Assembly: GCF_038006205.1 (NCBI RefSeq)
Contig: NZ_JBBOUU010000001.1
Coordinates: 932,001 to 996,000, forward strand
DNA from: Solibacillus sp. FSL R7-0668
Lineage (GTDB): Bacteria > Bacillota > Bacilli > Bacillales_A > Planococcaceae
Direction: 5' to 3'
Length of the DNA: 64,000 nt
This document shows, in pieces, positions 4,890 to 15,659 of this stretch; within the stretch, counting starts at the first letter, position 1, and each line of letters begins with the position of its first letter. The position numbers were made by a program, and so were the translations under genes. The notes below the pieces were generated by a model. That model did not search any database and was not told the origin of the DNA. It was given only the letters and a program-made list of their open reading frames with translations.

Positions 4890-5158
4890 TAATGAAATAG
4901 TATGCACAACGCATAAAGCTTTGATGGAGACAGTATATTTAGATTGCCGCATAGCGATTCGAGGATGGTGAGAGCTCGAACAAAACAAGCTAAATGGAAA
5001 ATCACTCCTGAGCTAAATAGCTGAAATTCAAGTAAGCTATTTCGTGTCACACGACGTTACAGTGTCTAATGAGGCGAATATTTCGCGAAATTAGGGTGGT
5101 ACCACGAGACAAATGCTCCTCGTCCCTTTTACTGGGATGCAGGGGCTTTTTATTTTGA
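4890..5158 (+). promoter_or_regulatory. T-box leader (Ile specifier) controlling ileS
   Basis: The diagnostic T-box AGGGTGGTACCACG is at 5093-5106. Stem I ends with a specifier loop in which ATC, an isoleucine codon, is at 5001-5003, followed by the usual purine. A stem III-like hairpin GCGAA/TTCGC lies just before the T-box. The rho-independent terminator runs from 5115 (GCTCCT pairing with AGGGGC) to a T tract at 5147-5158. Uncharged tRNA-Ile should pair with ATC and stabilise the antiterminator, raising ileS expression when charging is low. Confidence 0.93.
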
Positions 5159-5216: not shown

Positions 5217-7982
5217 ATGGTAGAGTACAAAGATACATTATTAATGCCAAAAACAGATTTCCCGATGCGCGGTGGCTTACCAACGAAAGAACCGCAAATT
5301 CAAGCACAATGGGATGAAATGGACATCAACAAATTAGTGATGGATCGCACAAAGGGGCGCCCAGAATTTTTATTACATGACGGACCTCCATATGCCAATG
5401 GGAATATCCACGTAGGTCATGCTTTAAACAAAGTAATTAAAGATATGATCAACCGCCATAAATCAATGGCTGGATTCCATGTGAACTATGTACCGGGCTG
5501 GGATACACATGGTTTACCAATCGAGCAGGCATTAACAAATAAAGGGGTAAAGCGTAAAGAAATGTCAGTTGCTGAATTCCGTGAGCTTTGCGAAAAGTAC
5601 GCCTATGAGCAAATTGACATGCAAAAAGATCAATTCCGTCGTTTAGGTGTACGTGGTGACTGGAAAAATCCATACATTACATTAAAGCCTGAATTTGAAG
5701 CGCGTCAAATCGAAGTATTCGGTAAAATGGCTGAAAAAGGTTATATCTACAAAGGCTTAAAACCAGTTTATTGGTCACCATCTTCTGAATCAGCATTAGC
5801 AGAAGCAGAAATCGAATATAAAGATGTAGAATCGTATTCAATCTATGTTGCTTTCGGCATTAAAGATGCAAAAGGGGTTGTACCTCAAGATGCCAAATTC
5901 ATCATCTGGACAACGACGCCTTGGACAATTCCAGCAAACTTAGGAATCTCAGTGAACCCTGAATTTACGTATGTTGTAGCTGAAGTGGCGGGAGCAAAAT
6001 ACATCGTAGCAAAAGAGTTACTAGAAAAATTAACAGTAACATTTGGCTGGGAAGATGTACAAATCGTTCAAGAAGTAAAAGGGCAAGAGCTTGACTTAAT
6101 CGTGGCAGAGCACCCAATTTACAAGCGTGATTCATTAGTGATGGTTGGGGAGCACGTAACTGCTGATGCGGGTACTGGCTGTGTTCACACGGCACCAGGT
6201 CATGGTGAAGATGACTATAATATTGGTAAACAATACGGTTTAGATATTTTATCACCAGTAGATAATGGTGGTTGCTATACAGCTGAAGCACCAGGATTTG
6301 AAGGCTTATTCTATGAAAAAGCAAATCCAATCGTAATTGAAAAGTTAAAAGAAGAAGGCGCATTATTAAATGTTTCAAAATTCACGCATTCATATCCACA
6401 TGACTGGCGTACGAAAAAACCAGTTATTTACCGTGCAACACCACAATGGTTTGCATCAGTGGAAATGTTCCGTGGTGAATTATTAGATGCTGTAACAGCA
6501 ACAGAATTCACACCGGCATGGGGTGAAACGCGCCTGTACAATATGATTCGTGACCGTGGCGACTGGGTCATCTCTCGTCAACGTGCATGGGGTGTACCGA
6601 TTCCAATTTTCTATGCAGAAAACGAAGAACCAATCATTACACCAGAAACAATCGCACATATTTCGAAATTATTCCGTGAGCATGGTTCAAATATCTGGTT
6701 CCAAAAAGAAGCAAAAGATTTATTACCAGAAGGCTTTACTCATGAAGGAAGCCCGAATGGTAAATTCACAAAAGAAAATGACATCATGGACGTTTGGTTC
6801 GATTCAGGCTCAACGCACCAAGGTGTACTTGCTGAACGTGGCATGAAATATCCAGCAGACCTTTATTTAGAGGGCTCTGACCAACACCGTGGCTGGTTCA
6901 ACTCGTCATTAATTACATCGGTTGCGATTAATGGTCACGCACCATACGAAGGTTTATTAACACATGGTTTCGTTCTTGATGGTGAAGGCCGTAAAATGTC
7001 GAAATCATTAGGCAACACAATCGATCCGTTAAAAGTGATGCAACAATACGGTGCAGATATCCTCCGTATGTGGGTAGCATCTGTTGACTACACAGGTGAC
7101 GTTCGTATTTCTATGGATATGTTAAAGCAAGTTTCAGAAACATACCGTAAAGTGCGTAACACATTACGTTTCCTACATGGTAACGTAACAGACTTCAATG
7201 AAGCAACAGACCGTGTAGCTTATGAAGACTTACGTGAAATGGATCAATACATGTATATGCGCCTACAGGATGTGGTGAAAACGATTCGTGCAGCGTATGA
7301 TCGTTATGACTTCTCGACAGTCTATACAACAGTGAATAACTTCGTTGCAATCGAGCTTTCTTCATTCTACTTAGATATCGCAAAAGATGTTGTGTACATT
7401 GAAGGCAAAGACAACAAAGACCGTCGCGCAATGCAAACGGTGATGTATGATACGTTAATGGCTTTATTAAAAGTATTAACACCAATTATCCCGCATACAA
7501 CTGAAGAGTTATGGGGCTATGTGGAGTTCGAAGGAAAAGCTGCATCTGTTCAATTAACGGACTTCCCAGAAGTTGATGAGCAAGCAAACTTCGAGCAATT
7601 ACGTCCAAAATGGGCAAAAATTATCGCGGTGCGCAATGAAGTGCTAAAAGCATTAGAAGAAGCACGAAACGCGAAAACAATTGGTAAATCATTAGAGGCA
7701 AAAATCTCAGTTTATGCAGATGCAGAAACAGTTGAACTATTAAATGATGCAACGATTAACTTTGCGCAGCTTTCAATTGTGTCGCAATTTATTGTTGCGG
7801 GTAGCAAAGAAACAGCTCCTGCTGAAAGTCTACAATTAGATAAAACCGCTTTAGTAGTTGAAAAAGCAGATGGCGAAAAATGTGAACGTTGCTGGACGAT
7901 TTCTGAAACAGTTGGATCAGATGAAAAACATGAGACATTATGTAAACGCTGTGCGGATGTTGTAGAAAACTATTACGTATAA
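5217..7982 (+). CDS. ileS: Isoleucyl-tRNA synthetase
   Basis: 921-residue class I aminoacyl-tRNA synthetase charging tRNA-Ile, of normal length for bacterial-type IleRS. Visible motifs are the HIGH signature HVGH in [11 protein letters not shown] (about 65-68), the editing domain with TTPWTIPAN and [12 protein letters not shown], and the KMSKS loop (about 593). A C-terminal zinc knuckle (CERCW then CKRC) begins at about 886. The ATG at 5217 follows AGGAGG. Expression is controlled by the T-box leader directly upstream. Downstream order differs from B. subtilis, where ylyA and lspA follow. Confidence 0.98.
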
Positions 7983-7992
7983 TTTTATAGGG

Positions 7993-8156
7993 CTGTGCGA
8001 AAAGTAAATCTTTCTCGCGCAGTGCTTCTGCGGTGGATGAACTAGGAACGAATGCTAAAACCGTCACATCGTGTGACAACGCATTCATGACCAGCATCGT
8101 ACTGGCCTCCATCCTCGGCGCAAGAGAGTGTCTAAAAAGTCTCGACTTTTTAGACA
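7993..8156 (+). ncRNA. Structured leader-like element, copy 1 (unrecognised family)
   Basis: A structured segment between ileS and azlC. Parts in order: a hairpin (CTGTGCG 7993-7999 with CGCGCAG 8016-8022); box A GTGCTTCTGCGGTGG (8022-8036); a stem GGTGGA/TCCATC (8032-8037, 8108-8113) enclosing inner hairpins (GAATGC/GCATTC and GTCACA/TGTGAC); box B CTCGGCGCAAGAGAGTG (8114-8130); and a perfect 12-bp hairpin TGTCTAAAAAGT/ACTTTTTAGACA (8129-8156). Copy 2 follows with the same end boxes. I do not recognise the family. It could be a leader RNA or a small dispersed repeat. Confidence 0.55.
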
Positions 8157-8180
8157 GATGTCACCTCATGTATTAGTTAT

Positions 8181-8277
8181 CCGCTTGAGGCGGTGCTTCT
8201 GCGGTGGTCAGAATAAATTCTCACCATCCTCGGCGCAAGAGAGTGCCCAAGAGATACTTCTTGGGCACTCTCTTTAT
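8181..8277 (+). ncRNA. Structured leader-like element, copy 2, ending in a terminator before azlC
   Basis: Second, shorter copy of the element. It has a hairpin CCGC/GCGG (8181-8193), box A GTGCTTCTGCGGTGG (8193-8207), a stem GGTGGT/ACCATC (8203-8208, 8223-8228) continuing as AGAAT/ATTCT, and box B CTCGGCGCAAGAGAGTG (8229-8245). The last eight bases of box B form part of the left arm of a perfect 15-bp hairpin, AGAGAGTGCCCAAGA (8238-8252) with TCTTGGGCACTCTCT (8259-8273), followed by TTATA. Overlap of a conserved box with a terminator arm is the layout of an attenuator. The azlC ATG is 49 nt downstream of the hairpin. Confidence 0.55.
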
Positions 8278-8322
8278 ACCATTTTATATTTTCAGAAAAG
8301 AAAGATTTTTAGAGGTGTTGTA

Positions 8323-13283: not shown

Positions 13284-13362
13284 GACAACAGTGAACGAAA
13301 GAGCTTGACGAGAGCAAGCAAGTAGTCGCGAAACTAATTACATAGTGTTCACCTTTAATGGC

Positions 13363-14083
<721 letters not shown>

Positions 14084-14111: not shown

Positions 14112-15413
14112 ATGTCTTCCAAGGCAGTATTAGATATCAATGATAAACCGAGTGCTGGTCAATTAATTACGTTTAGTTTCCAACATATGTTTGCGATGTT
14201 CGGTTCAACAATTTTAGTACCTAAATTAGTTGGGTTAAGCCCAGCTATTGCATTATTAACAAGTGGGATTGCAACAATTATTTTCTTATTTGTTACACAA
14301 TTTAAAGTACCTGCATACTTAGGATCTTCATTTGCATTTATTTCACCGATTATTTTAGTTGCGGGGTTATCGGAAGCAGGGGTATCGGTAAATCCAGGAA
14401 ATGCGATGATCGGGGCTATGCTCGTCGGTTTGGTTTATGCGATTGTCGCGTTAATCATTTGGAAAACAGGTTACAAGTGGTTAATGAATATATTACCTCC
14501 AATCGTTGTAGCACCAGTTATTATCGTCATTGGATTAGGCTTATCATCAACAGCAGTAAATATGGCGATGAACGTCAATGGAGAATACAGCGGCAAGCAT
14601 TTCTCGGCGGCAATGGTAACATTAATTGCAGCGATTATCTTTAATGTCTATTTTAAAAACATTTTAAGTGCGATGCCAATTTTACTTGGTATTATTGTTG
14701 GATACATTTACTCCATATTCATAGGAATTATTGATTTCACAGCAGTTAAGGAAGCAGAATTCTTCCAGCTACCAGATTTCTTAATTCCGGGTGTGCATTA
14801 TGATTTCAATATTACAGGGGCGATTTTCCTTGGTATGGTACCGATTGTAATTGTGACGATTTCAGAGCACATCGGTCACCAACTAGTGTTGGGGAAAGTT
14901 GTCAATCGCAACTATATTAAAAGCCCTGGTTTACACCGATCATTATTAGGAGATGGGTTAGGGACATTCGCTTCAGCAATTATCGGTGGTCCACCAAAAA
15001 CTACATATGGAGAAAATATCGGCGTACTAGCAATTACTCGTGTATATTCTGTCTATGTTATTTTAGGTGCTGCGGTTGTAGCCATTATTGTATCCTTCTC
15101 AGGTCAGTTAATGGCCATTATCGAAACAATTCCAACAGCTGTTCTTGGCGGGATTTCAATTTTATTATTCGGTATTATCGCATCAAGTGGTTTACGTATG
15201 CTAGTAGAGAACAATGTAGACTTCGGTAATAATCGTAACATGGTTATTTCTTCCGTAATCTTAGTAATCGGAATTGGCGGAGCGGCATTACGCTTTACAG
15301 AGAGCTTTGCCATTGAAGGAATGGCGTTAGCCGCTATCATCGGGGTAATTTTAAACTTAGTGTTACCTGGTCGTGAAGTGGTCCAACAAGATATTTATGA
15401 AACAGAAGAATAG
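14112..15413 (+). CDS. pyrP: Uracil permease PyrP
   Basis: 433-residue integral membrane transporter of the NCS2 nucleobase family, importing uracil. QLITFSFQHMFAMFGSTILVP is the N-terminal family signature, and SEHIGHQLVLGKV and GGPPKTTYGENIGVLAITRVYSV are the conserved substrate-site motifs. About 12 to 14 hydrophobic segments are visible. The ATG follows AAAAGAGGAAT. B. subtilis has a PyrR attenuator between pyrR and pyrP; here the gap is only 28 nt and holds none. Confidence 0.96.
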   Translation: MSSKAVLDINDKPSAGQLITFSFQHMFAMFGSTILVPKLVGLSPAIALLTSGIATIIFLFVTQFKVPAYLGSSFAFISPIILVAGLSEAGVSVNPGNAMIGAMLVGLVYAIVALIIWKTGYKWLMNILPPIVVAPVIIVIGLGLSSTAVNMAMNVNGEYSGKHFSAAMVTLIAAIIFNVYFKNILSAMPILLGIIVGYIYSIFIGIIDFTAVKEAEFFQLPDFLIPGVHYDFNITGAIFLGMVPIVIVTISEHIGHQLVLGKVVNRNYIKSPGLHRSLLGDGLGTFASAIIGGPPKTTYGENIGVLAITRVYSVYVILGAAVVAIIVSFSGQLMAIIETIPTAVLGGISILLFGIIASSGLRMLVENNVDFGNNRNMVISSVILVIGIGGAALRFTESFAIEGMALAAIIGVILNLVLPGREVVQQDIYETEE

Positions 15414-15427
15414 TACCTTTTAACTTT

Positions 15428-15535
15428 GTCCAGAGAGGCAATAAAGGGGATGGCAGGTAAAGGCGTGTGGGAAAAAACCAACATGCTTAGCTTGTCACAC
15501 CTTTAAAGCCTCGCAAATTGCTGCGAGGCTTTTAT
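15428..15535 (+). promoter_or_regulatory. PyrR attenuator 2 (pyrP-pyrB)
   Basis: GTCCAGAGAGGC (15428-15439) is a second PyrR-binding loop. The terminator stem is AAAGCCTCGCA (15505-15515) with TGCGAGGCTTT (15522-15532), followed by a T-rich tail. It controls the biosynthetic genes from pyrB onwards. Confidence 0.92.
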
Positions 15536-15659
15536 TCATAAAATGGACATGAATGTCTTACAATAGGCAAGCATAACTAAAATATTCACAATATAATGGA
15601 ATTAACCAAAATACATGCAATTCGAACTGTTATGTATTTTCAAAATCGGAGGCGCGAGC

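Follow-up and report, generated by a model that had tools for sequence, protein, structure and literature searches.

A dispersed modular repeat of Solibacillus and related Planococcaceae that probably replaces intrinsic terminators

In Solibacillus sp. FSL R7-0668, the ileS gene (5217–7982) lies upstream of azlC and azlD, and the gap between ileS and azlC contains a tandem structured element (7985–8277; all parts described below are on the + strand). Positions refer to the window, i.e. the whole 64,000-nucleotide stretch that was analysed. Copy 1 begins with a 5′ hairpin (GCTGTGCGAAAAG...CTCGCGCAGT; 7992–8023), which was identified by folding and is the first module of the repeat, preceding copies genus-wide. 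It is followed by box A (8022–8036), an interior corresponding to a Bacillaceae-1 RNA (8039–8105), and box B (CCATCCTCGGCGCAA plus GAGAGTG; 8109–8130). Directly after copy 1, the 5′ hairpin of copy 2 (TGTCTAAAAAGTC/GACTTTTTAGACA; 8129–8156, by folding) stands where the 3′ hairpin of copy 1 would be expected. Copy 2 continues with a CCGC/GCGG core hairpin (8181–8193), box A (8193–8207), a core stem-loop with a short interior (GGTGGT-C-AGAA..TTCT-C-ACCATC; 8203–8228), and box B (8224–8245), and ends in a terminator-like 3′ hairpin (AGAGAGTGCCCAAGAG..CTTCTTGGGCACTCTCT; 8238–8273). The same hairpin-core-hairpin-core-hairpin layout was found at locus L119 and, three times over, at L156. Within the window, the box A sequence GTGCTTCTGCGGTGG and the sequence CCATCCTCGGCGCAAGAGAGTG (8109–8130 and 8224–8245) each occur only at their two positions in the tandem. 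Ordinary Rfam matches elsewhere in the window are a T-box leader (RF00230) preceding ileS (4912–5130) and two PyrR binding sites (13348–13486 and 15412–15539).

The original prediction had described two copies with shared boxes A and B, and every coordinate that it gave was reproduced, those of the boxes by exact matching; the hairpins at 8129–8156 and 8238–8273 are both perfect. The joining stem is likewise as claimed, pairing GGTGGA (8032–8037) with TCCATC (8108–8113) in copy 1 and GGTGGT (8203–8208) with ACCATC (8223–8228) in copy 2. The A-T to T-A exchange between the copies is real, and GGTGGC/GCCATC also occurs in relatives; at the sixth position of the core stem, the pair is U-A, C-G, or (in copy 1) A-U. 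The predicted fold of 7985–8285 is far more stable than dinucleotide shuffles of it (z = −7.3; 0 of 100 shuffles as stable), and that of 8233–8281 reaches −29.4 kcal/mol. The terminator-like nature of the 3′ hairpin is supported both by the comparison of folds with shuffles and by the covariation described below, and this hairpin probably ends ileS transcription. In the window copy, the hairpin is followed by a short T-tract (CTCTCTTTATACC), and a simple terminator scan made no call there.

The original prediction recognized no known riboswitch in the element. The interior of copy 1, however, belongs to RF01690 (Bacillaceae-1), with a cmscan score of 60.6 bits against a gathering cut-off of 35 (Rfam release 15), whereas copy 2 yielded only chance matches to its hairpin. 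Since copy 2 goes unmatched, RF01690 does not account for the element as a whole. Matches of the hairpins to mir-1271 and other weak Rfam matches were dismissed as chance, leaving RF01690 as the sole Rfam identity. RF01690 has been described as an RNA of unknown function and is not listed as an exchangeable repeat core (PMC2864571); it is typed as an sRNA in Rfam, and CsrA binding has been proposed for its reverse complement (PMC4333381). In the genome containing the window, 7 copies of Bacillaceae-1 score above the cut-off, and the congeners contain 3 to 107 copies each. In other Solibacillus genomes, Bacillaceae-1 also resides inside at least two further distinct repeat frames, namely beta (L048, L049, L050, L060, L061, and L062) and gamma (L047, L052, L054, L067, L069, and L071), some of which begin directly after a stop codon.

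Searching the genome containing the window at the DNA level located the repeat frame at many further sites. A full unit starts with a 5′ hairpin, of which there are two main kinds, and continues through TTCRTnTATTAATTATCCGCTKnAGGCGG and TGCTTCTGCGGTGG to an interior; CCATCCTCGGCGCAA comes next, and the unit closes with a 3′ hairpin that mostly precedes a run of T's. Hairpins and T-tracts are present in most copies. The interior is either a hairpin of 15–18 nt or Bacillaceae-1, giving units of about 150 and 210 nt, respectively, and 34 short and 31 long forms were extracted. In copies elsewhere, box A is preceded by a segment of ~33 nt (TTCGTTCGTGTATTAATTATCCGCTGCAGGCGG) that is missing from copy 1 of the window and corresponds to the stretch between two TGCTTC repeats of those copies. 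A structure alignment of 27 short-form units supports five helices, in which 96.3% of the cells pair; the proportion is 96% for helix 2 (the CCGC/GCGG hairpin) and 98.7% for helix 4 (the core stem-loop), where 5 of the 11 pairs show two-sided changes. Covariation was also seen in helix 5, the 3′ hairpin. Changes on both sides were found in 22 of the 45 pairs, and no measure was matched in 500 shuffles or by sliding partners, which bears out the conserved pairing originally proposed. The core sequence, in which box A forms a near-invariant block, hardly varies among these units, whereas variation in the terminal hairpins is compensatory. Orthologous copies carry different versions of box A (L126/L140 and L124/L147), and one orthologous site contains Bacillaceae-1 at L123 and the short form at L161. 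Modules therefore appear to have been exchanged between copies in place.

A covariance model of the repeat (R1) gave 30 matches in the genome containing the window, 85 in G002, 92 in G015, 19 in G012, 1 in G010, and 0 in G003 at E ≤ 1e-6, the weakest of which may be lone hairpins. Within the family, 14 of 19 genera contain some match at E ≤ 1e-4, many of these being single weak matches that may be ordinary terminators. A pattern scan across genome contigs also detected the repeat in Solibacillus palustris and Lysinibacillus odysseyi, and the scattered single matches in unrelated taxa are at about chance expectation; no match was found in the plasmids and phages searched. Among 60 sampled copies, for which the longest open frames were taken as genes, none lies in a divergent gap, and most are in convergent gaps or directly after a stop codon. 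The neighbouring genes are functionally unrelated. Lone terminators that have no core but resemble one of the repeat's end hairpins, 3′ or 5′, were also noticed (L178, L183, L186, L192, and G000 C1:2568737), and these may be either remnants or sources of the repeat.

The gap between ileS and azlC lacks the element in all 15 congeners. Exactly at its site, 14 of them contain a homologous plain hairpin (GAACGCTRTTGYC..GRYAAYGGCGTTC) followed by T's, and the remaining one (G010) contains a plain hairpin of another sort; an azlC-proximal TTTTCAGAAAAG-like sequence is retained downstream in most. The tandem of the window thus occupies the site of what would be the ancestral ileS terminator. What precedes azlC is a tandem pair of copies of a repeat that looks mobile, almost certainly not a switch for azlC, and neither the congener gaps nor the neighbours of the copies revealed a conserved association with a branched-chain amino-acid transport gene.

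Other element loci were compared with the orthologous gaps of relatives, by inspection, then by script, and then in a second sample drawn from R1 hits, with orthology taken from flanking alignments. With few exceptions, the aligned gap of the relative contains one hairpin, with flanking alignments that stop only a few bases short of it. Replacement was seen by inspection at L018 and L020 (compared with G002/G015) and by script at ~25 loci. The closest comparisons come from 11 filled/empty pairs between G002 and G015, the flanks of which (about 1 kb on each side) are 95.1–98.6% identical. In 10 of these pairs, an element of 147–211 nt is present where the relative has a hairpin of 20–42 nt, with no target-site duplication or hairpin remnant. 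The exception (L150/L178) is a 172-nt difference beside a common 3′ hairpin, which may represent an insertion or a deletion; its empty site is a lone 3′ hairpin of the repeat's kind. At none of about 40 loci was an intermediate seen that has the element as well as the hairpin it replaced. On the left, the junction often preserves the A-tract together with the initial bases of the former stem (AAAAAAGTG|GCTGC in L149 and L284), other retained feet being AAAGAG (L270) and AAAGG (L271), and the right junction of the close pairs falls within a C/T-tract. At one locus (L282/L295/L304), the element is forward in G002 and reversed in G015, and a plain terminator is present in the genome containing the window. 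Since several species share homologous plain hairpins at L141, L132, L138, and L153, the plain hairpin is, by parsimony, the ancestral state there. Longer or less clear stretches have been replaced at a few loci (L144, L289, L272, and L143). As a separate observation, the ortholog of G000 C1:3302751, where the genome containing the window carries the repeat, is occupied in G015 (S. palustris; L101) by a different large structured element (GAAAAGCGCTATAGCGCC...GGCTGGCGCTTTAGCC).

At the level of sequence comparison, these data show dispersal, modular interiors, covarying pairing, placement at gene 3′ ends, and exact replacement of hairpins. We consider it very likely that the element is a non-autonomous, non-coding modular repeat of Solibacillus and related Planococcaceae that spreads through one-for-one replacement of intrinsic terminators and would then serve as a terminator itself. 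The original prediction had proposed a possible undescribed leader RNA before azlC, and the element's position 49 nt upstream of azlC, its stable conserved structure, and its terminator-like hairpin would all suit an attenuator or riboswitch sensing branched-chain amino acids. We regard this reading as extremely improbable, given that the element is missing at azlC in all congeners and elsewhere follows unrelated genes in either orientation, mostly in convergent gaps or directly past stop codons; a genome-wide distribution unlinked to gene function and a match to a family already in Rfam, both of which were found, are outcomes that the prediction itself had named as refuting it. Its own alternative, a small dispersed repeat placed by chance, was right as to the dispersed repeat but not as to chance, as the copies sit at terminators and replace them. 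The sRNA type of RF01690 and the conserved structure might instead point to a family of paralogous trans-acting sRNA genes. That explanation is improbable, since many copies begin directly after a stop codon, the RF01690 interior is missing from roughly half of the frames, and 3–107 dispersed copies are present per genome. A classical MITE, inserted with terminal inverted repeats and a target-site duplication beside a terminator that decayed later, would also be short, non-coding, dispersed, and intergenic, and would be similar in size to bcr1, RUP, and NEMIS (PMC3733652, PMC2229807). However, 10 of the 11 near-identical pairs show neither a remnant of the native hairpin nor a duplication, and none of the approximately 40 loci retains it next to the element, making a classical MITE highly improbable.

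According to the favoured explanation, i.e. terminator replacement, an arriving repeat would take the place of an existing terminator hairpin, and its terminal hairpins would act as intrinsic terminators upon arrival in either orientation, so that the swap would be nearly neutral. Because the left junctions fall in the A-tract or stem foot and the right ones in the C/T-tract, the swap would be either hairpin-targeted, by an enzyme acting in trans, or a microhomology-based template switch between terminator hairpins. In the window, the element would now terminate ileS and have no azlC-specific role. In another account, terminator hairpins undergo host-driven gene conversion or template switching among themselves with no dedicated mover, and the repeat arises as a side effect of recombination among terminators. 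This account is a rival solely to the enzyme-driven form of the favoured explanation, and we give it serious though less than even weight. The junction microhomology fits this account, as do the lone 5′ or 3′ hairpins of the repeat's kinds that serve as stand-alone terminators (L178, L183, and L186) and the orthologous copies that differ in box A version or interior (L126/L140, L124/L147, and L123/L161). On the other hand, conservation is far higher in the core than in the hairpins and the copy number varies from 0 to ~90 among congeners, as would be expected of a self-spreading element, and these two features lead us to lean towards a hairpin-directed enzyme. It is possible, though doubtful, that dedicated machinery recognizes the invariant core as DNA or RNA and swaps it for terminator hairpins of any kind, which would make terminators the true attachment sites, and that the Bacillaceae-1 'sRNA' is an exchangeable core of several terminator-swapping repeat families across Planococcaceae and Bacillaceae.

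Literature searches on Lysinibacillus/Solibacillus repeats and on terminator-replacing repeats returned nothing relevant; they yielded neither a description of the Solibacillus repeats nor any account of Bacillaceae-1 forming a repeat core. The closest parallel appears to be the EFAR repeats of Enterococcus faecalis, which Venditti et al. in 2007 reportedly described as modular, mostly ~170 bp in length, and foldable. Their empty sites are reportedly unrelated stem-loops of 24–37 bp, lost upon integration except for part of the target stem, which persists at the ends. The Solibacillus repeat would then behave similarly, in that a stem-loop target is deleted (in 10 of the 11 close pairs and at many further loci) and part of the target stem is kept at the ends (L149, L284, L270, and L271), and the hairpin-deleting behaviour itself would be of an already known kind. 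The likeness is one of behaviour. EFAR belong to another bacterial order, and the Solibacillus repeat contains a Bacillaceae-1 RNA core as well as a conserved core of its own. EFAR have been counted among MITEs (PMC3733652). The repeats bcr1–bcr18 of the Bacillus cereus group are, like the Solibacillus repeat, intergenic, dispersed, structured, and often located in UTRs, but bcr1–3 are MITE-like, and terminator replacement is not described for bcr1–bcr18 in the portion of the source consulted (PMC3446304). YPAL of Yersinia is similar in size (~168 bp) and in having targets that span or adjoin dyad symmetry, but it duplicates 3–26 bp of its target (PMC2229807), whereas no target-site duplication was seen in the close pairs of the Solibacillus repeat. 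REP/BIME sequences with RAYT are also dispersed extragenic palindromes, but consist of units of 20–40 bp with GTAG/CGTC tags (PMC3733652), in contrast to the Solibacillus units of 150–210 nt with a conserved core. Bacillaceae-1 (PMC2864571) fills the long interior of the repeat and is absent from short-form copies; its link to a dispersed repeat appears to be new.

These close genomes with many filled/empty pairs provide an unusually clean data set for hairpin-targeting bacterial repeats, which are poorly understood, and indicate that terminators can turn over through wholesale replacement. They also offer a new reading of RF01690, a function-unknown Rfam family, as the core of a dispersed repeat, and caution that a structured repeat lying at the end of one gene may pass for a leader RNA of the gene that follows. 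An IS200/IS605 parent was considered for the repeat. The genome containing the window has an IS200-like element in two near-identical copies with a Y1 transposase (L256 and L257), but its ends differ from those of the repeat (best match 15 nt, E 0.13) and it does not suggest itself as the parent. Each of these two copies lies just downstream of a terminator-like hairpin, and the flanks of L257 contain fragments resembling Bacillaceae-1 and the 5′ hairpin of the repeat.
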